Notes under the pieces: generated by a model
Seen by the model: only the letters and a program-made list of their open reading frames with translations
The model's database searches: none
What the model was told of the DNA's origin: nothing
Shown here: piece by piece, positions 1,329 to 63,492 of the stretch
Layout: the number at the start of each line of letters is the position of its first letter
How positions within the stretch are numbered: the stretch's first letter is position 1
Translations under genes and position numbers: made by a program
Assembly: GCF_900116295.1 (NCBI RefSeq)
Contig: NZ_FPAF01000011.1
Span: forward strand, 1 to 64,000
DNA: 64,000 bases
Direction of reading: 5' to 3'
Origin: Bacillus sp. 103mf
Lineage (GTDB): Bacteria; Bacillota; Bacilli; Bacillales; Bacillaceae_G

Positions 1329-1523
1329 TTTATATCCACTATCTTAATCGCCTATTTTATACCAAGGGATGCAAATAAGAAACCTGAAGGATCTGTTTTC
1401 TCTTGTTTTATTAAAATTGGAGTAATATTTAATAAAAAAGACTTACCTATTTGCTATATTATTCCCTCTTCCAATCACCATATATTTCTAGTGTACTATT
1501 AACTATAAGGAGGGAGTGCAGAA

Positions 1524-2597: not shown

Positions 2598-2615
2598 ATT
2601 AACAACTACATAAAT

Positions 2616-3160: not shown

Positions 3161-3180
3161 CCCCTAAAAGGGATTGTACT

Positions 3181-3545: not shown

Positions 3546-3566
3546 CTAGAATCATTATTGTTTCTA

Positions 3567-4445: not shown

Positions 4446-4565
4446 TCTTAATACCCACCTTCCGCTTTATGAAAGATTCACACTTAAAAGAACACTATGT
4501 ATGCGTTGGCATAACAACTATCTTTCTTTCTTATACTAATTGTAATCCCATGATTTCTTCATTTT

Positions 4566-4600
4566 GGAAACCAATAAATGTACTACATTTATTGGTTTCC
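4566..4600 (-). terminator. 35-bp near-perfect palindrome, probable terminator
   Basis: Two perfect 17-bp arms (GGAAACCAATAAATGTA and its complement) flank one central base. The palindrome lies between the end of the mhqR-like gene and the LysR start, both on the minus strand, so a terminator for mhqR is the simplest reading. An operator role cannot be excluded because no strong T run follows. Confidence 0.5.
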
Positions 4601-4653
4601 CCCCTCCTGTTTATTTACTTTTCTTTAATTTATATTTAAGTAGGATATTACTA

Positions 4654-4664
4654 ATTCGAGATAT
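4654..4664. promoter_or_regulatory. Orphan MhqR-like half operator
   Basis: ATTCGAGATAT repeats one arm of the operator found upstream of the mhqR-like gene (5143-5158). It lies downstream of that gene with no intact gene to control, which suggests a lost target gene. Confidence 0.35.
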
Positions 4665-4676
4665 ATGTTCAAAAAT

Positions 4677-5120
4677 TTATAGTTCTTGCGCATAATAGCC
4701 TAATTTTTTCAACTGTTCGATCATCACTTTTTTCTCACCAGAGTCCAAACCACCAAATATTTGTCGAATCGCCTGTTTATGCTTAGGGAAAATAGTATCC
4801 ATCAATTCAATACCTTCTGGAGTAATTGACGCATACGTGACACGGCGGTCTTTAGGACATGGTTTTCGTATTAATAACCTCTTCTTTTCCAACTTATCAA
4901 CTACATACGTGATACTGCTACTTGCAAGTAATATTTTGTCTCCAATTTTTTGTATAGGCTGATCGCCTTTATTGTATAGTAACTCAAGAACTGCAAATTC
5001 AGTTGGATTAAGTCCATAACTTTTTATATCTTCTTCAATACGCTTTGTGATTGACTGTGCTGCTCGTGATAATATAACAAATAACTTTAAAGATAAATTC
5101 TCATTATTAATCAAACCCAC
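4677..5120 (-). CDS. mhqR: MarR-family regulator, MhqR-like (quinone sensing)
   Basis: This MarR-type dimeric repressor of about 147 residues resembles Bacillus subtilis MhqR closely: the stretches LSLKLFV.LSRA, SYGLNPTEFAVLELLY, KGDQPIQ.IGD, ILLAS.SITYVVDKLE and CPKDRRVTYA are as I remember them from that protein. MhqR represses azoreductase and dioxygenase genes that detoxify quinones. The GTG at 5120 is preferred as start because an AAAGGA site lies nine bases upstream; a TTG nine bases further up leaves no room for it. A palindrome matching the remembered MhqR box lies just upstream, so autoregulation is likely. No quinone-detoxifying partner gene is present nearby. Confidence 0.75.
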   Translation of the reverse strand: MGLINNENLSLKLFVILSRAAQSITKRIEEDIKSYGLNPTEFAVLELLYNKGDQPIQKIGDKILLASSSITYVVDKLEKKRLLIRKPCPKDRRVTYASITPEGIELMDTIFPKHKQAIRQIFGGLDSGEKKVMIEQLKKLGYYAQEL

Positions 5121-5142
5121 AATTACCAATCCTTTACAAAAT

Positions 5143-5158
5143 ATCTCGAATTCAAGAT
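5143..5158. promoter_or_regulatory. MhqR-type operator palindrome
   Basis: ATCTCGAATTCAAGAT is a palindrome with one mismatched pair. It lies about 22 bp upstream of the mhqR-like start and resembles the MhqR box (ATCTCGAA...TTCGAGAT) known from B. subtilis. Confidence 0.55.
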
Positions 5159-5231
5159 TTATTATATGATTATCAAAATATTATGTCAATAATTCAGTTT
5201 AGTTCTATCAAACCACTTATAATTTATTTCT

Positions 5232-5411
5232 CAACATGAGACGTACGGAGGCGTAATAAAGTGAAACTTTAATCAGTGGGGGTTTTCTTCATCCCCCACT
5301 GATTATTAGTTGAACCAATCGGGCTTTTACGGGCAGTTTATCTCCCACCTAACTTCTTTGCTTTCGCCGAATTTTGAGGTGGGAGTATTACTGCCCGTTA
5401 ATGCGGGATAA
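5232..5411 (+). mobile_element. IS200/IS605-type end relic with nested hairpins
   Basis: About 180 bp of strongly structured DNA without a reading frame. One hairpin is AATCAGTGGGGG/CCCCCACTGATT at 5271-5305. A second is a nested pair, ACGGGCAGT/ACTGCCCGT enclosing CTCCCACC/GGTGGGAG, at about 5328-5400. Such hairpin-rich, CCCCAC/GTGGGG-containing ends are typical of IS200/IS605 elements and of tnpB-only relatives. No tnpA or tnpB survives beside it, so it is a solo end or a PATE-like remnant. Confidence 0.5.
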
Positions 5412-5568
5412 ATCAATTGGTAATATATAGACATCTCAATTGCGTTATTTCTTTTAAAGAGAGTTTGTTTTCTGACACAAGCTCTTTTTTTATCATATCC
5501 TACATAGAATTCAGAAACATTTTACCTGGTGAGTTTTGTACCCTTACAGCGATAGAGACCAAAAATCT

Positions 5569-5585
5569 GGTTCTGGTGCAAAACC
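5569..5585. repeat. Solo IS6-type terminal repeat
   Basis: GGTTCTGGTGCAAAACC matches the terminal repeats of the IS6 relics at 1188 and 2616 but has no transposase beside it. Confidence 0.5.
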
Positions 5586-5626
5586 TCAAAACAATTGCAA
5601 TTAATCTCTAAAGTTTGATTAAAGAA

Positions 5627-6817
5627 CTATTTTTCTGTAGCAAAATAAAGCAGTGCTATGACCGGAAAAGCGATTCCCATCCATAATGCTACACTCCATC
5701 CACCTGAGGCGTATGCCCATCCTCCGATAGAGGATCCAATAGCACCACCCAAAAAGAAAATAGCCATGAATAACCCGTTTAATCGACTACGAATTTCTGG
5801 CTCCAAAGAAAAAATCAAACGTTGACTAAGCACAAGGTTTGCGGACACTCCCATGTCCAATAGAATAGCTGCAACTACTAGAACAGCTATTCCGACGGGC
5901 GAATTACTCCGAATCATGAGTGGTAGTAATAAAGAAGCGATGACAACAGCGAGAGCTATCCCAGTGGCAATTCGAGTCCATCCACGATCAGCTAGACGTC
6001 CTCCTACTGGCGCAGCTATCGCACCCGCAATCCCGACAAGTGCATATAGTGCTATAGCTTTCTGAGAAAAATGAAAAGTAGGGCTAGACAATAATAACGG
6101 AACAGTAGTCCAGAATAAGCTGAAAGTCCCGAATACACACGCATGATAAATCGCGCGACGGCGTAAGATCGGGGTAGTTCGCAGTAATTGCCACATTGAA
6201 CCGAGTAAAGCGGTATAATTTGTGTTTGCCATTGGCCTCCTAGTAGGAAGTACTTTTAATAATATGATCGCTAAGGGAACAATTACTGCCGCAGACAAGG
6301 CAAATATTGCATTCCATCCCCAGATGTCAGCTACTAGGCTTGATATCGGACGAGAAAGCATGATACCAAGTAACAGACCACTCATGACATTGCCAACAAC
6401 GCGGCCACGTGTAGCTTCTGACGCAAGGTATGATGCAAAAGGTACGAGCACTTGTGCTGCGACCGATCCCAACCCGATGAAGAATGAAGTCACTAAGAAC
6501 AGTATTCCGTGTTTCACAAATACTATGGCAGTCAGGGCGACTGCACTTAGAAGTAACGATATAACTACCAGCTTTCGGTTTTCAACAATATCTCCTAAAG
6601 GTACAAGAAATAGTAAACCGACAACATATCCAATCTGGGTTAGCGTTACAATCAACCCAGCACTACTAGTAGAAAGCCCAATTGCAGAGCTAATTAACCC
6701 AACCAAGGGCTGTGCATAGTAAAGATTAGCTACAATGATACCACATGCAGTTGCGAGAAGTATGGTTAACCCTGCTGAAATATCTTTATCAATTGTTTGA
6801 TTTTTTAAATTAGACAT
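5627..6817 (-). CDS. MFS drug-efflux transporter (DHA1 type)
   Basis: A 396-residue protein with 12 predicted membrane segments. The motif-A-like sequence between TM2 and TM3 ([20 protein letters not shown]) and the TM4-5 stretch rich in Gly and Pro mark it as a drug:H+ antiporter of the DHA1 group. It is translated after, and overlaps by 8 bp, a 47-codon gene (6810-6953), so the two are probably coupled. The promoter region toward the divergent TetR gene carries three copies of one palindrome, so repression by that TetR protein is likely. The substrate is unknown. Confidence 0.85.
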
Positions 6818-6953
6818 AGTTAACTCCTCCTATACCATTATCCCGAAGTTCTTGAATTATCTTGACAAATGTTGCAGCGGCATCAGTGGCCATTGTACTA
6901 AATTGAGTCTGAACTGCATCCCACTCTTCTTTCAAGACTTTCAATTGTGCCAT
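6810..6953 (-). CDS. Small protein of 47 residues overlapping the MFS gene start
   Basis: Reading leftward, an AAGGAG site about nine bases before an ATG at 6953 opens a 47-residue frame ([18 protein letters not shown], then [20 protein letters not shown]). It ends at 6810, inside the MFS gene, sharing ATGTCTAA. The product would be soluble, alpha-helical and amphipathic, with no recognised domain. It could be a real small partner of the pump or a leader peptide that couples translation. A 28-codon frame further upstream (MLTDATKPK...) lacks a good ribosome site and is not called. Confidence 0.55.
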
Positions 6954-7054
6954 CTCTTTCTTCTCCTTTTCCATGTATTTTTAGTAATAAGTTCTTGTGG
7001 AGTCTTAGGCTTAGTTGCATCAGTTAACATTGCAAGATTTCTTAACAATTAAAT

Positions 7055-7160
7055 ACTAAACGTTTAGTTCATTAATTAAAACAAATAATATACTAAACGT
7101 TCAGTTTTGTAAATGGGTTATTTTATTTTTTATTCAAATTAAGTATACTAAACGTATAGT
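7055..7160. promoter_or_regulatory. Three TetR-type operators between divergent genes
   Basis: The palindrome ACTAAACGTTTAGT occurs at 7055-7068, with close variants ACTAAACGTTCAGT at 7092-7105 and ACTAAACGTATAGT at 7147-7160. Their place between the pump operon and the divergent tetR gene is the classic arrangement for autoregulated repression. Confidence 0.75.
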
Positions 7161-7186
7161 TTATATTTTTGGAAGGAATGATTAAT

Positions 7187-7765
7187 GTGCAAAGTAAAAG
7201 AGGTCGGCCGCGTAATGTCGAAACGCATAAGTCTATCCTTTCCGCATCCTATGAGTTATTGCTGGAAAAGGGCTTTAAAGCGGTCACGGTCGATAAAATT
7301 GCAGATCGTGCTAAGGTTAGCAAGGCCACGATTTATAAATGGTGGCCTAACAAGGCAGCCGTGGTAATGGATGGTTTTCTTTCTGTTGCCGCTGCCAAAT
7401 TACCTGTGCCTGATACGGGCTCGGCATTGAATGATATTCTAATTCACGCCACGAGTTTAGCCAGTTTTTTGACAAGTCGGGAAGGGACCATTATTACAGA
7501 GTTAATAGGCGAAGGGCAGTTTGATTCAAAATTGGCGAAGGAATATCGTACCCGATATTTTCAGCCCCGTCGACTCCAAGCTAAGCATCTTCTGGAGAAG
7601 GGAATTCAGAGAGGAGAATTGAAAGAAACTCTCGATATTGAATTAAGCATCGATCTCATTTACGGGCCGATTTTCTATCGTTTGCTCGTAACTGGCGAAA
7701 AGTTGGATGATTCCTATGTGCATCATTTAGTGATGAGCGCATTTGAAGGAATCCGATTGACCTGA
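7187..7765 (+). CDS. TetR-family transcriptional regulator
   Basis: A repressor of about 192 residues. The N-terminal helix-turn-helix is clear (SILSASYELLLEKGFKAVTV, DKIADRAKVSKATIYKWWPN); the C-terminal ligand domain resembles the TetR_C group found with drug pumps. GTG at 7187 fits best, nine bases after GGAAGGA (7171-7177); an ATG at 7178 is too close and a TTG at 7169 precedes the site. It is divergent from the MFS operon across three palindromes and probably represses both. Ligand unknown. Confidence 0.85.
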   Translation: MQSKRGRPRNVETHKSILSASYELLLEKGFKAVTVDKIADRAKVSKATIYKWWPNKAAVVMDGFLSVAAAKLPVPDTGSALNDILIHATSLASFLTSREGTIITELIGEGQFDSKLAKEYRTRYFQPRRLQAKHLLEKGIQRGELKETLDIELSIDLIYGPIFYRLLVTGEKLDDSYVHHLVMSAFEGIRLT

Positions 7766-8004
7766 ATAACATTCGAACAAAAATTTATTTACCACGAAAT
7801 TGCCGATTCTCCACTCTCCTGATATAATGCGTCATGACCTTTCATCGCTTTAATATCGCTGAGCGATATCGACCACCGGAGAATCGAAGAGCACTTTTTG
7901 AATCTATACCTGACTGATAAACTGGGTTTCCAACCATATTAATGGATTGGATGGTGTGTGAATTTAGAGAGTATTGAAGAGCATTATACGGATACAAATT
8001 TATC

Positions 8005-8032
8005 TTAAGTTGATGGGCATGGGACGGTACCC
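8005..8032. repeat. IS231-type right end plus 11-bp target-like sequence
   Basis: TTAAGTTGATGGGCATG at 8005-8021 matches the ends of the cassettes further along the window. The next 11 bases, GGACGGTACCC, fit the GGG-N5-CCC target type with one change. No body of the element is left on its left side. Confidence 0.6.
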
Positions 8033-8035
8033 CTA

Positions 8036-8119
8036 TTAGAAAATCACTCTTATAAGCAAGTTGAGGAGATAACAGGAATTAGCGAGGGCACATTGATTCG
8101 AGCGAAAAGAAAAGCGTAG
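8036..8119 (+). pseudogene. C-terminal tail of a serine recombinase
   Basis: Twenty-seven codons end in a stop: [16 protein letters not shown] then [11 protein letters not shown]. This matches the helix-turn-helix tail of resolvase/invertase-type recombinases. It begins right after the IS231-type end and target-like sequence, so the insertion probably truncated it. Confidence 0.5.
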
Positions 8120-8489
8120 ATATAAATAATGTATGTTATTGTATCCCTTGTATGTTAGGAAGAACAGTTGATGAAAAAAGAAAAACACAAAATCATATTT
8201 CATGAGAATATATACACTAAGGGACCCAGAGTACCAAATCCATTAAAGTTGAGTCTTAGCGAACAATAAGAGATGAAATGAAGGTACTTGAAATCAAAGA
8301 AATTGATATTTTTCAGATACGTGTATAACTAAGTCATAGTCATACATCATTTACCAGTAAGTTTTTGTAATTAACTCTGCATAGGATAAAGAAAAAACAC
8401 AAAGAATCTAGTTTTATTAAAAATCAAGAGAATAGTTAGAATCATATTCATCAATACATTTTTATTTAATGTCACTCATTATAAAGCAT

Positions 8490-22686: not shown

Positions 22687-22794
22687 CATCACCATCAAGC
22701 TAAAGGAACGAGTTATCCCCAAACAATAAATACGAGCAAAATGCAAAAAATTTTCGTTCTGGGGGTGGTATGAGAGTTTAAGTTGATGGGCATG
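22687..22794. repeat. bcr1-like palindromic mini-element with IS231-type ends (108 bp)
   Basis: Begins CATCACCATCAAGCTAA and ends TTAAGTTGATGGGCATG. Inside are an ATCCCCAAA arm and a TTTTCGTTCTGGGGG arm. It is preceded by GGATCCTGCCA and followed by the 11-bp spacer GGGTGGGACCC. Confidence 0.7.
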
Positions 22795-22805
22795 GGGTGG
22801 GACCC

Positions 22806-22934
22806 CATCGCCATCAACTTAAGAAATTGATTGTTCCCCAAAACGAAAAAAATGAGCCAAATTCTTATAAATAGCTGTAAAAAGGTAAAATTCTCGTTAT
22901 GGGGGTGTCTTAAAATCTTAGCTTGATGGGCATG
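22806..22934. repeat. bcr1-like palindromic mini-element with IS231-type ends (129 bp)
   Basis: Begins CATCGCCATCAACTTAAG and ends TTAGCTTGATGGGCATG. Its body pairs CCCCAAAACGAAAAAAATG with a TCTCGTTATGGGGG arm. The left spacer (GGGTGGGACCC) is shared with the previous element; the right flank is TGGTGCTACCC. Confidence 0.75.
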
Positions 22935-25239: not shown

Positions 25240-25277
25240 CTTAGCGTATATTTTCGTTAAAATGTGGGCGGTACCCC
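25240..25277. repeat. 38-bp Tn3-family terminal inverted repeat, type A (interior to the left)
   Basis: Read on the reverse strand it starts GGGGTACCGCCCACATTTTA and ends TACGCTAAG, exactly 38 bp, closely resembling the Tn4430 repeat as I remember it. The conserved inner sequence CAAATTTCGACA follows. An IS231-type mini-element is inserted at its outermost base. Confidence 0.85.
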
Positions 25278-25405
25278 ATGTCCATCAAGCTAATATTTTA
25301 GAGTATCCCCAAAACGAAAATTGTATCTCTTCATAGTTGTTCATGAAAATCCAGTTCATTTTTTTCATTTTGTGGAACAATTAGTCTCTTAAGTTGATTG
25401 GCATG
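25277..25405. repeat. bcr1-like mini-element inserted in transposon ends (129 bp)
   Basis: Begins CATGTCCATCAAGCTAA and ends CTTAAGTTGATTGGCATG. The left flank is GGGCGGTACCC, inside the type A repeat. The right flank is TATGGTGACCC, the outermost part of a type B repeat. The two flanks differ, so the element now joins two unrelated transposon ends. Confidence 0.75.
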
Positions 25406-25451
25406 TATGGTGACCCCATTTACTAAATATATAATTGTGCTCTTTTTATTT

Positions 25452-28536: not shown

Positions 28537-28789
28537 CTTTATGTATTTAGTGTGGGTAGGACCCCATACCCATCAAGCTAATATTTTGAAGTATCCCCAA
28601 AACGAAAAAATGAACTGTCATAGACAACAGTAGCAACATAGATTTTTCGCTTTTAAATAAGGAATCTACTGAATTCTCTAAAAGTATGGAAAAATTCTAG
28701 ATATGTAAGAGATCAGAGGCTACTCTCTAGACATACTTTAAACTCTCAAGAATAATGAAGATGTACCTAAAAAGTGGGAGGCATCATAT

Positions 28790-29704
28790 ATGATAAATTT
28801 AAATGATTTGGAACCTGGCATTCGGACCTTGGTCGCTCAATTCATAGAGGCTGATCGACCTTCGGCAAGACAGCAGAGCTTTCATGAACGCCGACAAGGA
28901 TATTTGAATACAATTGATCTTGCCGGAGAAGCCATGCCTGTATGGAATATTATTGATCAAACAATTGACGGCTTACCGCTTCGTATTTATAAATCGTCGG
29001 ATCAACTCAATCTTCCTATTCTGATTTATTATCACGGTGGCTGTTTTGTCAGCGGCGATTTCGAAACTCATGATCGTCAAATGCGTCGGTTAGCTAACTT
29101 GAGTAAATCCCTCGTTATTGCCGTCGGTTACCGATTGGCACCGGAGCACGTTTATCCAGCCGCACACGACGATGCGGTTAAAGCTACATATATTGTCCGT
29201 CAGTATGCTTCGGCTTGGGGGGGAAATCCAGACAATATTACTCTCGCAGGTGACAGCGCAGGCGGACATCTTACTCTAGTTACTTGCCTTCGCCTTAAAA
29301 CGGAAGGCAAGTGGCTTCCCCAGCGACAAATTCTTATTTATCCGATGCTGGACGCGAACGGTTTAAGCAATAGTTATAAGGAATTTGGAGACGATTATTT
29401 GATTACTCGAGATATGTTGCTTAGTGGTTTTGAAGCCTATTTATCTAATCTGCCTTCCAATCATCCAGAAGCTAGTCCATTATATCGAGAAGATTTTACC
29501 GGTCTTCCAGAAACTCACATTTTAACAGCAGAATTTGATCCTCTTGTCGATGAAGGTGAGATGTTGTATCGCCGTTTACTAGAAGCAGGCGTAAAAGTAC
29601 AATGCCGTCGGTACCTCGGAGTAAACCACGGATTCTTTCAATTGGCTGGTATCAGTCCAGCTGGTAAGAAAGCGATTGAGGATGTTGCATCTATTGTCAG
29701 GTAG
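28790..29704 (+). CDS. Alpha/beta hydrolase, HSL-type esterase
   Basis: A 304-residue enzyme of the hormone-sensitive-lipase group. The oxyanion-hole motif is YYHGGCFVSG (near residue 80), the nucleophile elbow GDSAGGH (near 154), the acid EFDPLVDEG (near 247) and the histidine VNHGFFQL (near 280). It should cleave short acyl esters. No signal peptide is present, so it is cytosolic. GTGGGAGG lies upstream of the ATG. Its G+C content is a little above the surroundings. It is the passenger gene of IS231-type cassette 1. Confidence 0.85.
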   Translation: MINLNDLEPGIRTLVAQFIEADRPSARQQSFHERRQGYLNTIDLAGEAMPVWNIIDQTIDGLPLRIYKSSDQLNLPILIYYHGGCFVSGDFETHDRQMRRLANLSKSLVIAVGYRLAPEHVYPAAHDDAVKATYIVRQYASAWGGNPDNITLAGDSAGGHLTLVTCLRLKTEGKWLPQRQILIYPMLDANGLSNSYKEFGDDYLITRDMLLSGFEAYLSNLPSNHPEASPLYREDFTGLPETHILTAEFDPLVDEGEMLYRRLLEAGVKVQCRRYLGVNHGFFQLAGISPAGKKAIEDVASIVR

Positions 29705-29801
29705 GTACTATTTATTAAATTAAGGAATGAGATAACTCCTTAAAGCAAAAAAATACGCTATTCTTTTTGTAGAAATATACCGAAAGGATGGCGTTTTTAA
29801 T

Positions 29802-31233
29802 ATGAATTTATCGATTTCTGATGAACTACAATTATTTTCTAAAGAATTACAACGACATATGTCACCTGATGCTTTAGAGAAATTAGCTAGAGAAATAGGA
29901 TTTGTTCAACGAAAAAGTAAATATCGAGCACAAGATTTAGTGGCTCTTTGTGTTTGGCTAAGTCAGAACGTAGCGTATACTTCACTTACGCAATTATGTA
30001 GTTCGATTAGAAGCTAACACCGGTATTTCTATGAGTCCAGAAGGACTCAATCAACGTTTTAATTCTCAAGCTGTTCAGTTTTTACAACAGCTCTTAGCAC
30101 ATTTACTTCATCAACAATTTTGTTCTTCTAGCAAGATTCCAATTTTGTATACAAATTATTTTCGGCGTATTCGTATATTGGATTCTACCCACTTTCAAGT
30201 TCCAGATAAATTCTCTTCTACATACCAAGGTGCAGGAGGAAGTGGTCAAAATGCTGGTGTAAAAATTCAATTAGAGTATGATTTACTAAGTGGTCAGTTT
30301 CTACATGTTCATGTAGGCTCAGGAAAACACAATGATAAAACGTATGGATCTACTTGTTTAACATCTCTTCAATCGAACGATGTATGTATACGGGATTTAG
30401 GATACTTCGACTTAAAAGACCTATATACTATAGAAAAGTGTAATGCTTATTTTATTTCGAGATTAAAGCTCAATACACGTATATATCAGAAGAATAAAGA
30501 GCCTGAATACTTTCAAAATGGAACAATAAAAAAACACTCTGAGTACACCCAATTAGATATGGAGCAATTCATTGACCAATTACAGTCAGGTGAAACATAT
30601 GAAATTCCTGAAATTTACATTGGAATGTATCAAAAGCTTCCTGCAAGACTAATTCTGTATAAATTAACTGAAACGCAAATGAAACGTAGACAAAAGGATT
30701 TAGCCTCTAAAGAGCATAAGAAGCAAATTACCTATAAAGAACGCAGTAAGAGGCTTAGTGCAATTAACTTTTACATTACAAATATTCCTTTGGAATATCT
30801 CCCAAAGGAACAAGTATACGATTTTTACTCCTTACGCTGGCAAATTGAACTTATCTTTAAAACATGGAAATCATTTTTTCGTATTCATCACTGTAATTCT
30901 GTAAAATTAGAACGACTAGAATGTCACCTATACGGACAGTTAATAAGTATCCTTCTTTGTTCCTCCACCATGTTTCAAATGCGCCAATTACTCCTCATCA
31001 AGAAGAAGCGAGAATTAAGTGAGTATAAAGCAATTTATATCATAAAAGATTATTTTCAACCTATTTATCAATCCTTACAAAAAGGCACCCAAGAATTAAC
31101 AAAGATCCTCTTTCGTCTGTTCAATCTCTTACAGAAAAACGGACGAAAATCCCATAGGTATGAGAAGAAAACAGTCTTTGATATCTTGGGTGTCGTATAC
31201 AACTTTTCTATGTCTCACAATCATGTAGCATAA
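29802..31233 (+). pseudogene. IS231-family transposase (IS4 group), frameshifted
   Basis: A 476-codon transposase almost identical to the intact copy at 37728-39158, split by one extra T near 30002 (TGTAGTTCGATTAGA against TGTAGTCGATTAGA). Frame 1 covers 29802-30017. The rest is open to 31233 and keeps the DDE residues (ILDSTHFQVPD, IRDLGYFDLKD, and the YREK-like YSLRWQIELIFKTWK). A programmed shift is unlikely because no slippery heptamer is present. Confidence 0.9.
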
Positions 31234-31493
31234 TCCAAAAAATTGAAACCCGATAGGGTTTATTTGGTATGCAAATCTTTAAAGAACTTACACTGGATCT
31301 TTAGAAAAAAGAAAAATCACATGTGAAATTAAACTTATATAAGCTTAGCTTGATGGCGATGGGGTCCCACCCCATAGCTATCAAGCTAATATTTTGAAGT
31401 GTCCCCAAATTTTTCTTGAAAATAAGTTGGGGCTTTTGAAACAGAAAAGTATATTTTTAACTATGAAAACTACGATGAATTTTTCCTTTTTTC

Positions 31494-32663
31494 CTACTTG
31501 CTAAATTCAGCAAGTAAAATATTTTTAAAAGGATTAGGACTGTCAGTTCTACCCAAACTATTCCAATTGACGACCAACGTATGCTTGCCTCCAAGTTTAC
31601 CTCCAACAAGAGTAGTAAACCCTAGAATGCCACCTGTGTGTCCCCATATCGAGACACCGCTTGGAAGCTTAGTTTCATAGATTCCAAGACCATATCCATC
31701 GATTCCTTCTTTTCCTGTAGGAACTGTAGTAAGCATTTGTTTTAGTTGCTGTTCTTTCAGTAATTTGCCACCGAGCAAGTAAGAGAAGAATTTGTTTAAG
31801 TCGTCAGCAGTAGAAATCATATCTCCAGCAGAGCTACCTGCACTTGGGTTATAATAAGTAACGTCTTTTAGCTCACTTGCTCCGTCTGGTTGGACATATC
31901 CACGGGCATGGTTAGTGCCTGGAATAACACTTGAGTTGCCTGGTAGGAATGTATTCGACAATTCAAGTGGTTCAATAATCCGATTTTCAATCTCTTCCGC
32001 ATAGCTGTTTCTGGTTACTTTTTCAATAAGAATGCCCAGTAATACGTATCCTGTGTTTGAATAAGACCAGCCATCTCCTGGGGCAAAGTCTGGAGGCAGA
32101 GAAACCCCCATCTTCACTAACTCTTCAGCCGTATACGATTTTTTTGTATCCGTAAAATCAGCGTCTTTTGACCTTGAGTATTCAGCGATACCACTTGTAT
32201 GGTTCAATATCTGCCGGATAGTAATCTTGTTACCATCATATCCATTTCCTTGAATGACACCAGGCAACCAGTTTTCGATGTAGTCGTCTAGATTCAGGCG
32301 ATTCTCTCCAGCTAATTGAAGTACAACTGTTGCGGTGAACGTCTTCGTCACACTCCCAATGCGAAAGCGAAAATCTGTTTTCATTGGTTTCTTGGTTCTC
32401 AGATCCGCTATCCCAGCGGCATACCCCCACGTTTTTCCACCCTCAGAAGTTTTAGCAAGTATCCCCGGGTATCCAAGTTGCAATGTATCCCGCATTGCTT
32501 GCTTGACGGAAGTATGATCTCGTTGAGTATTTGTTTGTAACGAACTAGATACATTTTGAGTGGGCTCTGCTTTTACAATTGAGGTTGGTGTTGTATATAA
32601 CAGGGAACTTCCAGCTATTAAAAGGGCCAGACTTGCACATGTAATTTGACTACGTATTTTCAT
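31494..32663 (-). CDS. adp: Alkaline D-peptidase / D-stereospecific endopeptidase
   Basis: A secreted serine hydrolase of about 389 residues with a beta-lactamase/DD-peptidase fold. The signal peptide is KIRSQITCASLALLIAGSSL, the catalytic SxxK is SVTKTF (near residue 85), the tyrosine motif YSNTGY (near 180) and the third motif GHTGG (near 340). The ATG at 32663 follows GAGGAG. The sequence matches the D-stereospecific endopeptidase gene known as the passenger of MIC231 in B. cereus, as far as memory allows. It cleaves peptides with D-amino acids outside the cell. Confidence 0.85.
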   Translation of the reverse strand: MKIRSQITCASLALLIAGSSLLYTTPTSIVKAEPTQNVSSSLQTNTQRDHTSVKQAMRDTLQLGYPGILAKTSEGGKTWGYAAGIADLRTKKPMKTDFRFRIGSVTKTFTATVVLQLAGENRLNLDDYIENWLPGVIQGNGYDGNKITIRQILNHTSGIAEYSRSKDADFTDTKKSYTAEELVKMGVSLPPDFAPGDGWSYSNTGYVLLGILIEKVTRNSYAEEIENRIIEPLELSNTFLPGNSSVIPGTNHARGYVQPDGASELKDVTYYNPSAGSSAGDMISTADDLNKFFSYLLGGKLLKEQQLKQMLTTVPTGKEGIDGYGLGIYETKLPSGVSIWGHTGGILGFTTLVGGKLGGKHTLVVNWNSLGRTDSPNPFKNILLAEFSK

Positions 32664-33095
32664 ATGGCATTCCTCTCCTCTATTCATATTGTATAAGTGT
32701 TTGCTTACTGTTCCTTACTTCCTGACAAGACTTAGGGAAAGGCCCTCACGCATATAGATTAAAGCCCCAGTACAAAGGTATCTATCAATACCAACAATTT
32801 GAGCCAGTTAAATCTCCATCCCTTCTATAACAAAATTATTCAAAGGTATGAAAGCATATTATGTACCCTTAGTTATTGTTAGGATTAACACAACATGAGA
32901 CATAGCCCCAACCCATATTTTACTTTATTTATCCATGATATGTATTGAGAAAGAATATAAATTCGAATCCTTTCCGTACCCCAACTATTGATCGTTTTTT
33001 TCACCTATTATAATTAGTTATTTAGAATTTCATAATAAAAAACTGTAAAAAAATAACGAGTCCCTTAACGAACAGGAAGTGGTTTAAAAATATGT

Positions 33096-33133
33096 CTAAA
33101 CGCACAATTATCTTTTTTTGATATGGTGACCCC
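33096..33133. repeat. 38-bp Tn3-family-like terminal repeat, type B right (interior to the left)
   Basis: On the reverse strand it reads GGGGTCACCATATC...GTGCGTTTAG, the inverted partner of 26115-26152. Its outer 11 bases TATGGTGACCC (33122-33132) are the target of an IS231-type left end. The rest of the 32664-33095 gap holds nothing recognised. Confidence 0.75.
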
Positions 33134-33300
33134 ATCGCCATCAAGCTAAGATAAGTGTATATACCCAAAACAAGTAAAAAGAAAATTTCATGCAATTAAG
33201 CGCTTATTAGCATCTTTCATACTGAAAGATGTTATTTTCTATTTTGTTATGTTGTTTTACGACATATGTCGTGTTACGATATTGTTCAGGGGGTGAAAAA

Positions 33301-33630
33301 ATGGATAAAGAGATGATGAAAGGAAGTATTGATATACTTGTGCTCTCTATAATTTCTCACCATGATACTTATGGTTATGAAATTATTCAAAAACTTAAAG
33401 AACAAAGCAATGACGTTTACCATATGAGTCAAGGTACACTATATCCAGCACTCAAACGAATGGAACAAAAGAAGTTGATTGAATCTTACTGGGGAGAATC
33501 AGAAACAGGAATGAAGAGAAAATTTTACTCGATTACTGTGGCTGGCAAGCAGGAACTAGAGAAGAAATTGGATTATTGGGGACAAATCACTGCACTTATT
33601 CAAGCTTGCAGGAAAGGGGACTTCGCATGA
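33301..33630 (+). CDS. PadR-family regulator
   Basis: A 109-residue short-type PadR protein: MDKEMMKGSIDILVLSIISH opens the winged helix, and SQGTLYPALKRMEQKKLIES is the recognition region. The ATG at 33301 follows GGGGGTG by about six bases. The stop overlaps the next start (ATGA). PadR genes of this length usually repress the membrane protein gene that follows. Confidence 0.85.
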   Translation: MDKEMMKGSIDILVLSIISHHDTYGYEIIQKLKEQSNDVYHMSQGTLYPALKRMEQKKLIESYWGESETGMKRKFYSITVAGKQELEKKLDYWGQITALIQACRKGDFA

Positions 33631-34355
33631 AAGATTTTGAAAATTACATAGAATGTATTGTGGAAAATACTAATCTAGATAGGTCATCCCGAGACGAGCT
33701 GGCTTTAGAATTACTTGATCATCTCACTAGTTTAAAAGAAGAATATATTAAAAAAGGGATGTCTATTGAGCAAGCAAAACAAATGGCGATACAACATTTT
33801 GGAGAACCAAATTCTATTGGAGGGGAGCTTCAAAAATCTATTTTTCCATATGAAAAATTCATAAAGCGTTCTGTATGGTCTTTATTTGTTGCTTATATAT
33901 TGTTCTTTATTTGGTATCAGTACTTAGGAAATGGCTTTGGGCGTGAATGGTTTTTTGGGATTATTGAACAATTTTCAAGAAATCATGATGTAATGTGGTT
34001 GCTTCGCACTTTTATTGATATTACACCTTTCTATATGCTTTTTCTTCATAACAACATACCTGGTTATTGGATAGTTCATGCAGTTAAACCAATTATCTTA
34101 TTGATTCCATTGGGATTTTTAATTCCTATTCTATTTCATAGGTTCCGTTCTTCTAAAGCAGCTTTTATGCTCTTTGTTAAATTAACTTTAATCATTGAGT
34201 TGTTGTATATTGTCATGTTAGTAGGTACTTTTGACACTACTAGTATTATTTGTCATTTGGTTGGCCTCTTAGTTGGATTTATGGGATGGAAATTACTACA
34301 AAAACTGCAGGTTAAAAAATTCCTTACACCATCTAATATGAACTATGTGAAGTAA
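33627..34355 (+). CDS. HAAS-domain membrane protein with VanZ-like C-terminus
   Basis: A 242-residue protein. Residues 1-75 form a HAAS/permease-prefix domain (LALELLDHLTSLKEEYIKKG, MAIQHFGEPNSIGGEL), commonly paired with PadR regulators. About five membrane segments follow. The last part resembles VanZ (IPLGFLIPILFHRFRSSKAA, TLIIELLYIVMLVGTFDTTS, CHLVGLLVGFMGW), a family linked to glycopeptide and lipopeptide tolerance. The domain order HAAS plus VanZ is uncommon. It is translated together with padR and is cargo of cassette 2. Confidence 0.75.
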   Translation: MKDFENYIECIVENTNLDRSSRDELALELLDHLTSLKEEYIKKGMSIEQAKQMAIQHFGEPNSIGGELQKSIFPYEKFIKRSVWSLFVAYILFFIWYQYLGNGFGREWFFGIIEQFSRNHDVMWLLRTFIDITPFYMLFLHNNIPGYWIVHAVKPIILLIPLGFLIPILFHRFRSSKAAFMLFVKLTLIIELLYIVMLVGTFDTTSIICHLVGLLVGFMGWKLLQKLQVKKFLTPSNMNYVK

Positions 34356-34701
34356 AAATTTTATTGTGATTAATTCACAGAGGATCTTGGAACCAAATAA
34401 AAAATGTACAAGAATTTAATAATGGTTTGTCTTTATTATTCAGGTAGCATCACCTCTTTAGAAAACAGAAAAAATCTAGTTGAACGGACTTTTACTTAAT
34501 CTTAGGTTGATGGGCATGGGGTCCCACCCCATGCCCATCAACCTAATGTTTTAGATCACCCCCAAAACGAGAATTCTATTCATTTTTGACTACTGATAAG
34601 TGGGGGATGTTAACTACAAAACCCCTGACTGGAGTAGCGCCCCTATAATACGGATTTACAACGTTAAGTTGTTTATAGTATTAAATATGAATGAAATTTA
34701 G

Positions 34702-35433
34702 TTAGCTTTTCATTTTTCTCTTAAAGCCCCAAACAGCAATTAAGAAGATAATTATCGTATAGCCAACTACCCATAATAATGGTACAACAATATCTCTGTA
34801 CTCACCAGATAAAGCAAATCGTGTAGCATCAACTGCATGAGCAAATGGTAATGCATAACCGATTGTTTTAAAAGTACCACCAATTATATCTAACTTAAAC
34901 CAAGTTCCACTTAACCACGTTGTAAGATTTACGAATATCGCAAAAATCCCACCGACCTGTTTGTCAGTGAAGAACGTTCCGAGTAGTAAACCAAATCCAA
35001 TGTAAAGCGTTGCAATGATAACAAGCAGAAAACTAGCAAATATTACATTCGTACTAATAGATAAACCTAAGAAAAATGCAGAAATAAAACAAATAACAAT
35101 TTGAAGAAATACAACAGGTAATAGAGGGAGAGTATACCCAGCAATATAATCTGTCGCAGTCATAGGGGAAGCGAAAATTCTCATTAAAAACGAACTACTT
35201 TTATCCTTTCCAATCAGCATCCCTGAAAATAACGTAGCGAACGAAAAACTGAAAACAATCACTCCTGGTGTTAAGTTTTCTATGCTATAAAGTTCAAATG
35301 GCATATTTTTCTGCATGATTGAAAAAAGACACATGATAATAATCGGAAGTACAATCCCAAATACAAGTGTCAAAGGGTCTCGTAAAATCTCTTTACGATT
35401 ACGCGTAGCAAATGCTAAAGTTCTCATAGTCAA
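34702..35433 (-). CDS. ABC-2 type transporter permease
   Basis: A 243-residue permease with six membrane segments of the ABC-2 fold (LVFGIVLPIIIMCLFSI; GVIVFSFSFATLFSGML; LPLLPVVFLQIVICFI; FASFLLVIIATLYIGFGLLL; YALPFAHAVDATRF). It pairs with the ATPase gene just upstream, overlapping it by four bases. Drug or peptide export is likely from the family; substrate unknown. Last gene of the LytTR operon, carried in cassette 3. Confidence 0.85.
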   Translation of the reverse strand: MTMRTLAFATRNRKEILRDPLTLVFGIVLPIIIMCLFSIMQKNMPFELYSIENLTPGVIVFSFSFATLFSGMLIGKDKSSSFLMRIFASPMTATDYIAGYTLPLLPVVFLQIVICFISAFFLGLSISTNVIFASFLLVIIATLYIGFGLLLGTFFTDKQVGGIFAIFVNLTTWLSGTWFKLDIIGGTFKTIGYALPFAHAVDATRFALSGEYRDIVVPLLWVVGYTIIIFLIAVWGFKRKMKS

Positions 35434-36152
35434 GCCCCCTCTTCAGTTAGCTTAAGGAATATATCCTCTAAGTAAGATTCTCCCGTACTCTCTTTTAACT
35501 CATCAATCGTTCCAAGTGCACGCAACTTACCATCGTGCATGATCCCAATACGATCAGCAAGTGCTTCTACTTCTTCTAGATAATGTGTCGTTAAAATAGT
35601 TGTGATTTTCCCCTTTAACTCAAGAAGTGTTTTCCATAAATCATGTCTCGCACGAATATCCAGCCCTAGTGTTGGCTCATCTAGGAAAATAATTTCAGGT
35701 GACGAAATAAGTGCCATCGATATGCTTAATCGGCGCTGCAACCCACCTGATAATGTTTTAGCTTTATTTTCTGCTCGCTCCAAAAGTCCAAACTTCCTCA
35801 TCATTTCCACCGCTTTTTGCGTAGCGTCTTGCTTCTTGCTTCCATATATACTTGCGATAAATTCTAAATTTTCTTTTACAGAAAGATTCGGAGCTACCGC
35901 AGTTTCCTGTGGCGAAATATTTATTTTTTGTTTTACTGCCGTTGGGTTCTCGACAATACTATCCCCTAACATCAGAGCGTCTCCACTTGTAGGTGTAAGC
36001 AAGCAGCTAAGCATTTTAATCGTCGTTGTTTTCCCGGCAGCATTTTGTCCTAGAAGTGCAAAAAATTCTCCCTTCTCAATCGTCAGTGAAAGATTATCGA
36101 CAGCTGTATGCTCTTTATAATTTTTTGTTAAATTCTTTATAGCAATGGCCAT
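35430..36152 (-). CDS. ABC transporter ATP-binding protein
   Basis: A 240-residue nucleotide-binding subunit: Walker A GQNAAGKTT (near residue 35), Q-loop NISPQETAV, signature LSGGLQRR (near 135) and Walker B IIFLDEPTLGLD (near 157). It belongs to the CcmA/DRA group that works with ABC-2 permeases. It starts directly after the DUF3021 stop and overlaps the permease start by four bases. Confidence 0.9.
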   Translation of the reverse strand: MAIAIKNLTKNYKEHTAVDNLSLTIEKGEFFALLGQNAAGKTTTIKMLSCLLTPTSGDALMLGDSIVENPTAVKQKINISPQETAVAPNLSVKENLEFIASIYGSKKQDATQKAVEMMRKFGLLERAENKAKTLSGGLQRRLSISMALISSPEIIFLDEPTLGLDIRARHDLWKTLLELKGKITTILTTHYLEEVEALADRIGIMHDGKLRALGTIDELKESTGESYLEDIFLKLTEEGA

Positions 36153-36623
36153 TTATTCATCACCTCTCCCTTCTAATTGTTTCGATTGAATCGCAGCATT
36201 AATTCGTTTGATATCATTCTTTGAAATCATGTATTGAATAACCCACGTGACAACATACGTACCTAAAAAACTAATAAAAAAAATCATTGTGCTTGTGAAT
36301 GTTTTTGGCATCCAAAGCAGTGTCACTATTGGTACCCATACCAATGCTGTTATGCAAAAGTGAACGATGTACTGTTTCAATAGACTCCACTTCGCTATTT
36401 CAAAAACAAGAGAACTTGTAGCGAACGTGACTCCAATGATCCCTGTTAACATTATTTGTACAATGACAGCGGTCATCTCACTAACAAAGAAAGAGCGAAA
36501 GTGATCCACAACTGATATATATTCTCCATGTCCTAATTTGAGTGAAATAAGGATTTGTACGACTTGTCCTATAATCACGCCGATGACAAAACCACCAAAA
36601 ACTCGATTTATTAAATTTTTCAC
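36153..36623 (-). CDS. DUF3021 membrane protein
   Basis: A 156-residue protein with four membrane segments (GGFVIGVIIGQVVQILISL; AVIVQIMLTGIIGVTFATSS; VHFCITALVWVPIVTLLWM; MIFFISFLGTYVVTWVI). DUF3021 proteins nearly always follow LytTR regulators, as here, and may modulate them from the membrane. It lies 12 bases after the LytTR gene and is immediately followed by the ATPase gene. Confidence 0.85.
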   Translation of the reverse strand: MKNLINRVFGGFVIGVIIGQVVQILISLKLGHGEYISVVDHFRSFFVSEMTAVIVQIMLTGIIGVTFATSSLVFEIAKWSLLKQYIVHFCITALVWVPIVTLLWMPKTFTSTMIFFISFLGTYVVTWVIQYMISKNDIKRINAAIQSKQLEGRGDE

Positions 36624-36635
36624 GATGTTTTCACC

Positions 36636-37076
36636 TCATATTCCGAACAATTTCTTAATTTTTGAAACATAGCGTCGAGAAGCATACGTTTTGATATTAC
36701 CTGCTAATAAAACGCCAATTGTTCCTGTTATACTAATATCCATATTCGTAATCATTTTAATGTTAACAATCTCTGAGTTTGAAATACGAACGAAAAATTG
36801 ACTATTTAGTTTCGCTTCTAGTTCATATAACCTTGAACGAACCGTATAGATACCAGCAACAGTTTGGAGAAATACCTTCTGTTTCTCCGCATAGATTCTG
36901 ACGATATCTTTACATTCGACTATTTCAACACCTCTTTCTGAAAATACAGCCAATGAATCCATACGAGCCTCTGAGAGCCGTTTCATAATATCAGATATCT
37001 CATCTGTCATTTTATCTGTAAGAATGATAATTTTCGGTTCTTTATAAGATGGGTCTATCGAAACTTCAAACTTCAC
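36636..37076 (-). CDS. LytTR-domain DNA-binding regulator
   Basis: A 146-residue protein: a short N-terminal region and a C-terminal LytTR domain (AEKQKVFLQTVAGIYTVRSR, FVRISNSEIVNIKMITNMDI, ASRRYVSKIKKLFGI). It lacks a receiver domain, so it probably responds through DUF3021 or by self-regulation. It is the first gene of a four-gene operon with DUF3021 and the ABC exporter, and is likely its activator. Confidence 0.85.
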   Translation of the reverse strand: MKFEVSIDPSYKEPKIIILTDKMTDEISDIMKRLSEARMDSLAVFSERGVEIVECKDIVRIYAEKQKVFLQTVAGIYTVRSRLYELEAKLNSQFFVRISNSEIVNIKMITNMDISITGTIGVLLAGNIKTYASRRYVSKIKKLFGI

Positions 37077-37635
37077 TTCACCACTTCCCTTTCGCTCGCT
37101 CTAAATATAAAAGCTATTTAAGTTACTGTAAATGGATTTTCGATAATCGGTCGTTTTCACACGATAACTGGTCAAAATACGAATATAGCAATTCTTTTTA
37201 GATGCTTCAGGAACACATTCTCCTTATTTACAATAAAAAAGTGCACGAAGACAGGCACTCTGTGTACTAATCCAATATATGTATTTCTTAATAAAAATCG
37301 TTTTTGAAAATTTTTCCATATAGGTAAATAGCCTGTATGAAAGGCTTTATAATATTCAAAAAACTATATCTTTATGAAAAGCTTTACCCTATTAATAAAA
37401 TGAACTTTTTTATATTTCTATTATACATGAATAAAAAAACGGCACTTTATTTTGTGGCGTGTGGCTCTAACTAAATAATTTTATTGTTTTTTAAGGGACT
37501 TTATTATTTATGAACATTATATTTTCTTAAGTGAATTATATTTATATCTGTTAGTAAAGACTATGTGAACGAAGAAACCCTTCAGAAAATCTGAAGGGTT
37601 TCTAGATGCATTAAATACTAATAGGGATATCATCC
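37077..37635. other. Promoter region of LytTR operon and spacer to IS231
   Basis: A/T-rich region with a strong hairpin GAAACCCTTCAG/CTGAAGGGTTTC at 37573-37602 (terminator-like). No clear LytTR direct repeats could be picked by eye. The last bases, GGATATCATCC (37625-37635), are the target-like flank of the IS231 copy. Confidence 0.5.
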
Positions 37636-39287
37636 CATCGCTATCAAATTGAGATAAATTTGTATCTAAATATTATGAAAAACGCTATTATTTATTTAGA
37701 AATATATAGAAAGGATGGCGTTTTCATATGAATCTATCAACTTCTGATGAACTACAATTATTTTCTAAAGAATTACAGAGATATATGTCACCACATGCTT
37801 TGAATGAGTTAGCTAGAAAAGTAGGATTTGTTCAACGAAAAAGTAAATACCGCGCACAAGATTTAGTATCCTTATGTGTTTGGTTAAGCCAAAATGTAGC
37901 TCATACATCATTAACACAATTATGTAGTCGATTAGAAGTAAACACAGGCATTTCTATGAGTCCAGAAGGACTCAATCAACGTTTTAATTCTCAAGCTGTC
38001 CAGTTTTTACAACAACTCCTAGCACGTTTACTTCACCAACAATTTTGTTCTTCTAGCAAAATTCCAACTCTATATATAAACTTTTTTCGTCGTATTCGTG
38101 TATTAGATTCTACACATTTTCAGGTTCCAGATAAATTCGCTTCTACATATCAAGGTTCAGGAGGTAGTGGGCATAGTGCTGGTGTAAAAATACAATTAGA
38201 ATACGATTTACTAAGTGGTCAGTTTTTATATGTTCATGTAGGTTCGGGAAAACATAATGATAAAACGTATGGTTCTACTTGCTTAACATCTCTTCAATCA
38301 CATGATGTATGTATACGAGATTTAGGATACTTCGATTTAAAGGATCTACATACGATAGACAAGTGTGGTGCGTATTTCATTTCACGATTAAAGCTTAACA
38401 CTCGTATATATCAGAAAAATAAAGAGCCTGAATACTTTCAAAATGGAACAATAAAAAAGCACTCTGAGTACGTCCAATTAGATATGGAGCAATTCATTGA
38501 CCAATTACAGTCAGGTGAAACATATGAAATTCCTGAGATTTATATTGGAATGTATCAAAAGCTCCCTGCAAGACTAATTATGTATAAATTAACTGAAACG
38601 CAAATGAAACGGAGACAAAAGGATTTAGCATCTAAAGAATATAAGAAACAAATTACCTATAAAGAACGTAGTAAGCGACTTAGTGCTATTAACTTTTACA
38701 TTACAAATATTCCTTCAGAATATCTCCCGAAAGAACAAGTATACGATTTTTATTCCTTACGATGGCAAATTGAACTTATCTTTAAAACATGGAAATCGGT
38801 CTTTCGTATTCATCACTGTAATTCTGTAAAATTAGAACGACTAGAATGTCACTTATATGGACAATTAATAAGCATCCTTCTTTGTTCCTCCACCATGTTT
38901 CAAATGCGCCAATTACTCCTCATCAAGAAGAAACGGGAATTAAGCGAATATAAATCGATTTATATCATAAAAGATTATTTTTCACTTATTTATCAATCCT
39001 TACAAAAAGACACCCAAGAATTAACAAAGATATTGTTTCGTCTGTTCAATCTTTTACAGAAAAATGGACGAAAATCTCATAGGTATGAGAAGAAAACTGT
39101 CTTTGATATCTTAAGTGTCGTATACAACTTTTCTATGTCTCACAATCATGTAGCGTAATTAAAAAATTTGAAACCCGATAGGGTTTATTTGGTATGCAAA
39201 TCTTTAAAAAACTTACACTGGATCTTTAGAAAAAAGAAAAAGTCTCACGTGAAATTAAATTAAAACAGGCTTAACTTGATGGGCATG
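37636..39287. mobile_element. Complete IS231-family element (about 1.65 kb)
   Basis: The left end is CATCGCTATCAAATTGAG at 37636, diverged; the right end is CTTAACTTGATGGGCATG at 39287. The length of 1652 bp agrees with IS231. The flanks differ (GGATATCATCC left, GGGTCCCACCC right), so it has rearranged since insertion. The 3' tail with its GAAACCCGATAGGGTTT hairpin is shared with cassette 1. Confidence 0.8.
37728..39158 (+). CDS. tnpA: IS231-family transposase, intact
   Basis: At 476 residues this is full length for the IS231 branch of the IS4 family. It keeps the DDE triad regions: Asp in RVLDSTHFQVPD (near 130), Asp in IRDLGYFDLKD (near 200) and Glu in the YREK-type helix YSLRWQIELIFKTWKS (near 345). 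It cuts and joins at IS231-type ends with about 11-bp target duplication. It could move all cassettes in this window that keep both ends. Confidence 0.93.
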   Translation: MNLSTSDELQLFSKELQRYMSPHALNELARKVGFVQRKSKYRAQDLVSLCVWLSQNVAHTSLTQLCSRLEVNTGISMSPEGLNQRFNSQAVQFLQQLLARLLHQQFCSSSKIPTLYINFFRRIRVLDSTHFQVPDKFASTYQGSGGSGHSAGVKIQLEYDLLSGQFLYVHVGSGKHNDKTYGSTCLTSLQSHDVCIRDLGYFDLKDLHTIDKCGAYFISRLKLNTRIYQKNKEPEYFQNGTIKKHSEYVQLDMEQFIDQLQSGETYEIPEIYIGMYQKLPARLIMYKLTETQMKRRQKDLASKEYKKQITYKERSKRLSAINFYITNIPSEYLPKEQVYDFYSLRWQIELIFKTWKSVFRIHHCNSVKLERLECHLYGQLISILLCSSTMFQMRQLLLIKKKRELSEYKSIYIIKDYFSLIYQSLQKDTQELTKILFRLFNLLQKNGRKSHRYEKKTVFDILSVVYNFSMSHNHVA

Positions 39288-39324
39288 GGGTCCCACCCAC
39301 ATTTTAACGAAAACATACGCTAAG
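39287..39324. repeat. 38-bp Tn3-family terminal repeat, type A (interior to the right)
   Basis: It starts GGGGTCCCACCCACATTTTA and ends TACGCTAAG, exactly 38 bp, with CAAATTTCGAC following as at 25227-25239. Bases 2-12 (GGGTCCCACCC) are the spacer sequence used at three cassette junctions. Confidence 0.85.
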
Positions 39325-39716
39325 CAAATTTCGACCGTGAAGAGCAACTAAGGCAGCTACACGAAAAAAGGAAACAGACAACTATAGCTAAGGTTGAGGA
39401 AGCTATAAAACGTCTAACCAAGAGCTCTAAAGCAATTAACTTCAATAGTGTGGCAGAAGAAGCCGGAGTGAGTAAAGCCACACTGTATAACCATACAGAG
39501 CTCAAAGAACGCATCAATTTCTTGCGAAATCAACAAGAAAAAGCATTTGTGGACTCTAGGATTAAATGGGACGAGAACAATCAAAATGCCGTCATCGCTT
39601 CTCTTAAAAGAAGAATTGAAACGTTAGAGAAAAAGAATAAAGAGCTTGAAGAAGAAAATAAGCAATTGCGTGAAAAAGAAAATGAAAAGCTTACTGATTA
39701 CTTCATGAAGTTATAA
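39324..39716 (+). pseudogene. DUF6262/TnpC-like protein, 5' truncated at transposon end
   Basis: An open frame runs from inside the Tn3-type repeat to 39716 with no ATG. It reads REEQLRQLHEKRKQTTIAKV, then INFNSVAEEAGVSKATLYNH with a helix-turn-helix, then a coiled coil (LKRRIETLEKKNKELEEENK). This matches DUF6262 proteins, the TnpC partner of Tn554-type transposons. The first codons are lost at the repeat boundary; a GTG at 39450 could give an 88-residue product. The tnpA and tnpB partners are absent. Confidence 0.7.
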
Positions 39717-39720
39717 AATT

Positions 39721-39764
39721 AGGACCGTACATATTAGACATATCTAAAATGTACGGTCCTTTTG
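39721..39764 (+). terminator. Terminator
   Basis: AGGACCGTACAT pairs with ATGTACGGTCCT, followed by TTTTG. Confidence 0.85.
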
Positions 39765-39812
39765 TTTACTAGTGGTTCACTTATCTAACCTAAAGATAAG
39801 TATGTGGTCCTT

Positions 39813-45569: not shown

Positions 45570-45698
45570 CATCACTATCAAGTTAAGAAATACATTCTTC
45601 CTCAAAACGAAAAAAATGAACTAAATTTCTATGGACAACTATGAAAGGATGAAGTTTTCGTTTTGGGGATACTTCAAAATCTTAGGTTGATGGGCATA
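45570..45698. repeat. bcr1-like palindromic mini-element (129 bp)
   Basis: The best-kept copy: CATCACTATCAAGTTAAG to CTTAGGTTGATGGGCATA, with the long arms CCTCAAAACGAAAAAAATGA and TTTTCGTTTTGGGGATACTT. The right spacer, AGGTCCTGCCA, is shared with the next element. Confidence 0.75.
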
Positions 45699-45709
45699 AG
45701 GTCCTGCCA

Positions 45710-45795
45710 CATTGCCATCAACCTAAAAAAACGAGTTACCCATAGGGAAATATTCTCGTTCGGGGGTATTAAAAGATCTTAACTTAATGGGCAAG
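45710..45795. repeat. Short bcr1-like mini-element (86 bp)
   Basis: Begins CATTGCCATCAACCTAAA and ends TTAACTTAATGGGCAAG. The right flank AGACGGTACCT matches GGACGGTACCC at 8022 in 9 of 11 bases. Confidence 0.7.

Positions 45796-61429: not shown

Positions 61430-63492
<2,063 letters not shown>

Follow-up and report, generated by a model that had tools for sequence, protein, structure and literature searches.

Stacked IS231-type cassettes 11 bp apart at a Tn3/Tn4430-type repeat tip in Bacillus sp. 103mf

The 64,000-nucleotide stretch of Bacillus sp. 103mf DNA analysed here (contig NZ_FPAF01000011.1, positions 1 to 64,000; "the window") contains a row of three transposon units that meet at 11-bp spacers, and we consider it probable that these are IS231-type cut-and-paste transposons of the IS4 family, two of which are composite, and that they stacked up by inserting serially into one 11-bp tip of a Tn3/Tn4430-type terminal repeat. 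The units occupy 28565-31361 (unit 1, 2,797 bp), 31373-34518 (unit 2, 3,146 bp) and 34530-39287 (unit 3, 4,758 bp), all on the + strand, and these coordinates and the IS231-type ends at them agree with a first-pass annotation made from the sequence letters alone. The single 11-bp spacer that it placed between neighbours was borne out exactly. Three spacers, at 31362-31372 (between units 1 and 2), 34519-34529 (between units 2 and 3) and 39288-39298 (after unit 3), are identical copies of GGGTCCCACCC, hereafter T, and flank units 2 and 3 as T/T/T; the 11-mer to the left of unit 1 (28554-28564) is GGGTAGGACCC, so the spacers are not all alike as had been supposed. The spacer is itself the tip of a Tn3-type repeat: its last copy runs on into ACATTTTAACGAAAACATACGCTAAG, and together with the preceding base, which is contributed by the end of unit 3, this gives a complete 38-bp Tn3/Tn4430-type repeat (39287-39324, + strand, 0 mismatches to the generic pattern) of which T forms bases 2-12.

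A search for opposed IS231-type ends with a gap of 5-17 bp found three junctions in the window (22778/22806, 31345/31373 and 34502/34530), every one with a gap of 11 bp, and gave no match in 100 shuffles of the window. The end motif by itself (one mismatch or fewer) has 22 matches against 1.65 expected. The junction at 22778/22806 belongs to a second array (22687-22934), in which two elements the size of miniature inverted-repeat transposable elements (MITEs), 22687-22794 and 22806-22934, are separated by GGGTGGGACCC; a third array, now decayed, lies at about 45570-45793 (right limit approximate) and also consists of two MITE-sized elements with 11 bp between them.

The generic Tn3-type pattern (two mismatches or fewer) matches the window 6 times, against 0.57 expected, and in three of these matches an element sits one base inside the end of the 38-bp repeat. 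They are the repeat 39287-39324 described above; a repeat at 25240-25277 (- strand, 0 mismatches), which has a MITE-sized element (25277-25405) at its tip, followed by TATGGTGACCC, the whole spanning 25240-25416; and a repeat at 33096-33133 (- strand, 2 mismatches), whose tip, also TATGGTGACCC, abuts an inner left end of unit 2. Another match, 34631-34668 (+ strand, 1 mismatch), lies within unit 3, about 100 bp from its left end, and the remaining two are at 26115 (1-2 mismatches) and at 22909, the latter being merely an IS231-type end read through. The repeat 39287-39324 leads directly into a DUF6262 gene without a start codon, and a resolvase adjoins the repeat at 25240. The 11-mer TATGGTGACCC, which adjoins the MITE-sized element (25406-25416) and the inner left end of unit 2 (33122-33132), recurs at two loci outside the window (L055 and L028).

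Flanks were analysed for 78 exact IS231-type ends from the window and 23 fetched loci. An inner Tn3 motif is present at the predicted distance in 11 of the 78 (offset 30 in nine, offset 29 in two), where 0.013 is expected per offset. The flanking 11-mers, read in their better orientation, have a consensus of about GGGTMCCRCCM, and only 13 of 78 have the form GGG-N5-CCC that the first-pass annotation had named as the target; the target is instead the tip of a Tn3-type repeat. The outer side of the tip carries a fourth C in 21 of 22 flanks, and five A+T-rich bases lie beyond the tip in a wider and looser set of 39 flanks (one of which is a stray junction); A+T-rich bases are expected beside a Tn3 insertion. 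In 11 genomes selected for holding junctions, the generic pattern finds 59 Tn3-type repeats (the reversed control finds 1), and an IS231-type end sits exactly on the tip in 17 of them, so that tips with and without insertions both exist, in agreement with the annotation's model. Looking outside outward-pointing pairs of tips for the 5-bp duplications of Tn3 gave no convincing match in about nine units compared by eye, and one candidate, the pair 26115/33133, did not hold up (TACAA on one side, ATTTA on the other).

How could one tip receive several elements in turn? IS231-type ends start with CAT, which gives ATG-GGGT at the tip, and the G of the end replaces the first G of the Tn3 repeat; because of this, the 38-bp pattern is still complete in occupied repeats and each junction again displays the target with its neighbouring bases. 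The full pattern is present in all 17 occupied repeats, and since the pattern requires the G of the end this is a description of their anatomy and not a test. In the mechanism we propose, the tip would be duplicated at each insertion; the IS231-type end, which starts with C and finishes with G, would rebuild the first G of the GGGG tip; and the Tn3 repeat would then read complete again, so that the landing site would persist beside each new element. For cargo cassettes to form, the transposase would pair an outer, MITE-like left end with a neighbour's right end and move all the DNA between them, and the unused inner left end with its old 11-bp flank would remain as a scar. Later recombination between copies could swap flanks, which would explain the odd left edge of unit 1.

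The ends and transposases of the units point to the IS231 subgroup. The terminal consensus of the subgroup, CAT-------AA--TAA (PMC2266710, Table 1), is present at the ends of all units, with a single deviation (ATTGA) in the inner left end at 37636. The unit 3 transposase matches PF01609 and scores above the cut-off of NF033592 (IS4 family), and a direct reading of its translation finds the Y(2)R(3)E(6)K signature of IS4-type DDE transposases as YSLRWQIELIFKTWK. Direct repeats of 10-12 bp, which are typical of IS231, flank units 2 and 3 (11 bp) and do not flank unit 1, whose flanks are unlike. Unit 2 has the MIC231 organisation of passengers between IS231-type ends without a transposase, since it holds only adp-like, PadR and VanZ-like genes. 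These features support the view that the units would behave as IS231/MIC231-type cassettes.

Units 2 and 3 are composite. Unit 2 has a second left end at 33133, adjoining the tip of its Tn3-type repeat, and unit 3 has one at 37636, which is the left end of a complete IS231-type element and has GGATATCATCC as its outside 11-mer. The first 40-50 bases of units 1-3 are similar to the termini of other, MITE-sized elements of the window, and on the right units 1 and 3 finish with IS231 right ends. In the three composites that have identical flanks (units 2 and 3 and a Peribacillus unit, L084 8620-13664) it is the outer and not the inner left end that carries the match, as is expected if the transposase paired the outer left end with a neighbour's right end. 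Three further units with two left ends (L087, L095 and L137) lack equal flanks. Facing ends are alike at bases 13-14 in 4 of 4 cases in the window and in about 3 of 9 elsewhere (by eye).

Is the 11-bp spacing peculiar to this window? Searches outside it, for opposed ends with gaps of 0-30 bp in genome sets that overlap, found junctions in 9 of 9 genomes picked from a first scan, 4 of 19 of one family and 5 of 397 in a sample of the order. Altogether there are 16 distinct junctions outside the window, in 11 Bacillales genomes; 14 have a gap of 11 bp, one of 10 and one of 12, so the spacing is a general rule and spacer length does not vary randomly, an outcome on which the first-pass annotation had staked its model. 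The order sample alone has 9 junctions (8 at 11 bp, 1 at 12), and a reversed-pattern control on its 397 genomes has 1 match, compared with true matches in 5 genomes. No new junctions were obtained from the genus of G205 (3 of 36 genomes matched) or the family of G002 (2 of 23). In genome contigs the junction pattern (gaps 5-17) occurs in 27 stretches, of which 10 are from Bacillales (9 at 11 bp, 1 at 10); the 17 others were taken as chance, since their gaps are scattered between 5 and 15 and a single one is 11. Nine stretches in viral contigs were also taken as chance (gaps, judged by match length, of 9, 18, 24, 28 and 30 bp, none of 11), and a phage collection searched with the array DNA gave no match.

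Among the plasmid records behind nine loci, one has a junction, and on the P. simplex plasmid pSHB26 there are two IS231-type elements in a row. Pairs of identical 11-mers are found at L083 and L092, each with a further left end beyond. A Peribacillus plasmid carries the adp-like gene and repeat with 94% identity over window 31480-33150, and at the same tip the place of the window's PadR/VanZ-like cassette is taken by a MITE-sized element. No record in the plasmid collection covers most of the array, neither a close relative nor any member of the B. cereus group turned up in the collections searched, and the best DNA matches to the flank are about 72% in the 19-genome family.

The T/T/T arrangement supports insertion of units 2 and 3 into a neighbour's duplication, as re-use of one target predicts; the pairs of 11-mers at L083 and L092 and the altered content at the Peribacillus tip also count in favour of re-use. 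Several observations weigh against so simple a history. The 11-mer left of unit 1, GGGTAGGACCC, differs from its right-hand spacer, GGGTCCCACCC, so the left edge of the array is not an original duplication. Identical direct flanks are present in only 8 of 38 two-ended units (1 more has identical inverted flanks and 29 have different ones), and none of the 8 is an element under 200 bp. Units 2-3 are the only case of three identical spacers among arrays in which all three can be read, and the P. simplex plasmid array (L085) has three different 11-mers. Of the 59 Tn3-type repeats, 42 lack an exact IS231-type end at the tip. The annotation's proposal that each cassette landed in the 11-bp duplication of the last fits units 2 and 3, and is not supported by the mismatched left-most spacer or by the 30 of 38 units without identical direct flanks. 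Since only 8 of 38 units have identical flanks, recombination also shapes such arrays.

Could the junctions then have been built mainly by homologous recombination between IS231 or MITE copies in different Tn3 tips, each copy bringing its 11-bp flank? The flanks of the 30 units, which are unlike and yet tip-like, fit this, as do L055, where two different Tn3 repeats enclose an IS231-type element, and complementary swaps, tip A/MITE/tip B in the window (25240-25416) and tip B/MITE/A-like tip on the Peribacillus plasmid. However, recombination inside elements cannot alone place unlike elements exactly 11 bp apart, for which a neighbouring insertion is still required, nor would it lead one to expect T/T/T on the flanks of two units that differ in content; we think it rather unlikely as the chief origin of the junctions. 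A single arrival of the whole 10.7-kb stretch 28565-39287 as one composite transposon is far less probable again: its outer left and outer right ends are correctly oriented, but its outer 11-mers (GGGTAGGACCC and GGGTCCCACCC) differ, the inner spacers are the same as the 11-mer on the outer right, and the inner copies of T would be left unexplained. That the units are chance IS231-like words in AT-rich DNA, or an artefact of annotation, has in its favour the low complexity of the region and nothing further, and the shuffled windows and reversed-pattern control above make its likelihood negligible. Given the flank evidence for and against serial insertion, our view is that the 11-bp spacing came from stepwise insertion and that what chiefly followed was recombination between copies.

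The L055 element (3140-4795, in plasmid record CP079755, labelled Klebsiella grimontii) has its two unlike Tn3-type repeats facing each other; its neighbours, which include a small acid-soluble spore protein, are spore-former-like and the organism label may be wrong. At L061 (2959-4624) an IS231-type element has identical inverted 11-mers (GGGTCCCGTCA / TGACGGGACCC), the arrangement one would see had the element taken over the interior of a Tn3-type transposon.

IS231-type ends may also contain a second landing site, 22-32 bp from the terminus. One Ectobacillus genome (79 ends) has four pairs of exact ends that point in the same direction and are 32 bp apart, and the outer end at L138 agrees in all of 33 bases with an unoccupied end (L142), the inner element starting after base 32. 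The pairs (L137 598/630, L138 1662/1694, L139 643/675 and L140 1063/1095) look like insertions of one element into the end of another, at bases 22-32. It is conceivable, and we offer it tentatively as a less probable extension, that Tn3 tips and IS231-type ends together make up a docking pair that renews itself, with GGGG-N5-CCCC-like junctions, supplemented by the ends' own landing site. If this were true, stacks could grow without limit while sparing genes and the host transposon, as a cassette row that is driven by transposase and free of integrase. As regards shared expression or selection, the "platform" that the first-pass annotation saw in the array is something we would only infer.

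The ingredients of the array are already known: IS231, MIC231 and IS231 in Tn3 tips. In the 2008 account (PMC2266710), the IS231 subgroup has the same ends, transposase family, YREK spacing and 11-bp flanks, and passenger genes between the left end and the transposase are a known trait; the units here have such extra DNA, and their 1.65-4.76 kb lie within the published 1450-5400 bp. The window differs in that its units are stacked in series at 11 bp. Host range also differs, since that text places IS231 almost only in the B. cereus group and we find members in six other genera (Peribacillus, Priestia, Ectobacillus, Cytobacillus, Shimazuella and Seinonella). The gene adp is described as the passenger of MIC231A1 (PMC3913671); unit 2 resembles MIC231 in having passenger genes without their own transposase between IS231-type ends, and differs in joining a MITE-like left end to another cassette's right end while retaining the inner left end. 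Insertion of IS231 one base inside the terminal repeat, as here, is in print for Tn4430, TnBtoxis, TnBt9727 and TnBMB165 (PMC1626470; also PMC1196294), and in the portions of those papers at hand the insertions are reported as single ones, whereas two to three units share one tip here. We found no description of cassettes stacked 11 bp apart in the literature searched, which was available in part and lies outside the original 1987-2004 IS231/MIC231 papers.

Two other kinds of element invite comparison. IS4321 and IS5075, found in Tn21-family repeats, are likewise insertion sequences specialised on 38-bp transposon tips, with IS110/IS1111 chemistry; we know of no 11-bp duplication or stacks described for them. 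In integron cassette arrays genes likewise build up one behind another at a single landing site that outlasts each insertion, but here each unit is a transposon with two ends, and no integrase, attC or common promoter is shown; no integrase was found among the window's open reading frames (ORFs) submitted to Pfam, a screen that was not a search aimed at integrons. If serial insertion at one tip is right, it would explain how passenger genes come to collect at safe sites in Bacillales genomes. It would also explain how IS231 cassettes acquire cargo, namely through the pairing of an outer end with the end of a neighbour, which leaves a readable scar. A directly testable rule would follow, that targets next to a tip are favoured and are not lost on insertion, and opposed ends 11 bp apart would serve as a pattern in searches for further stacks.

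The cargo consists of the gene types that had been listed from the letters, with the corrections that the transposase of unit 1 is divided between two frames and that units 2 and 3 are composite. Unit 1 has a MITE-like left end, an alpha/beta hydrolase (28790-29704, + strand, PF07859), the IS4-family transposase (29802-31233, + strand; ORFs 29802-30017 and 30031-31233) and an IS231-type right end; the DNA around its transposase (29751-31356) is 89.9% identical to the complete IS231-type copy. Unit 2 has a MITE-like left end, an adp-like serine hydrolase of beta-lactamase fold (31494-32687, - strand, PF00144; the adp label comes from literature on MIC231A1 and from the annotation), the Tn3-type repeat, and an inner cassette with its own left end (33133-34518, + strand; outside 11-mer TATGGTGACCC) that holds a PadR regulator (33301-33630) and a VanZ-like membrane protein (33627-34355), both on the + strand and assigned by Pfam. 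Unit 3 has a MITE-derived left end, the Tn3-type repeat, a passenger operon of ABC-2 permease, ABC ATPase, DUF3021 and LytTR regulator genes (34702-37076, - strand, Pfam) and the complete IS231-type element (37636-39287, + strand, 1,652 bp), whose transposase is a single ORF of 476 aa (37728-39158, + strand).

Some neighbouring features may be recorded. The DUF6262 gene (39324-39799) is of Tn554 type, and its start codon is missing exactly at the end of the Tn3 repeat; an intact DUF6262 gene lies behind two tyrosine recombinases in Priestia plasmids. At 8005-8021 of the window an IS231-type left end stands at a Tn3-like tip, near a TetR-like gene and an MFS transporter, and no partner end was found for it. 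The L083 locus holds an 8-kb unit (449-8475) with identical 11-mers on both sides, adjoining proline genes, and contains ApbE-like, FMN-binding-like and two-component genes (by eye from ORFs) and a truncated IS231-type transposase. From the gene content we would place the host in the Bacillus cereus group. Far to the right of the array, at 61828-63492, the window encodes a neutral protease that matches the solved neutral protease 1npc and thermolysins.

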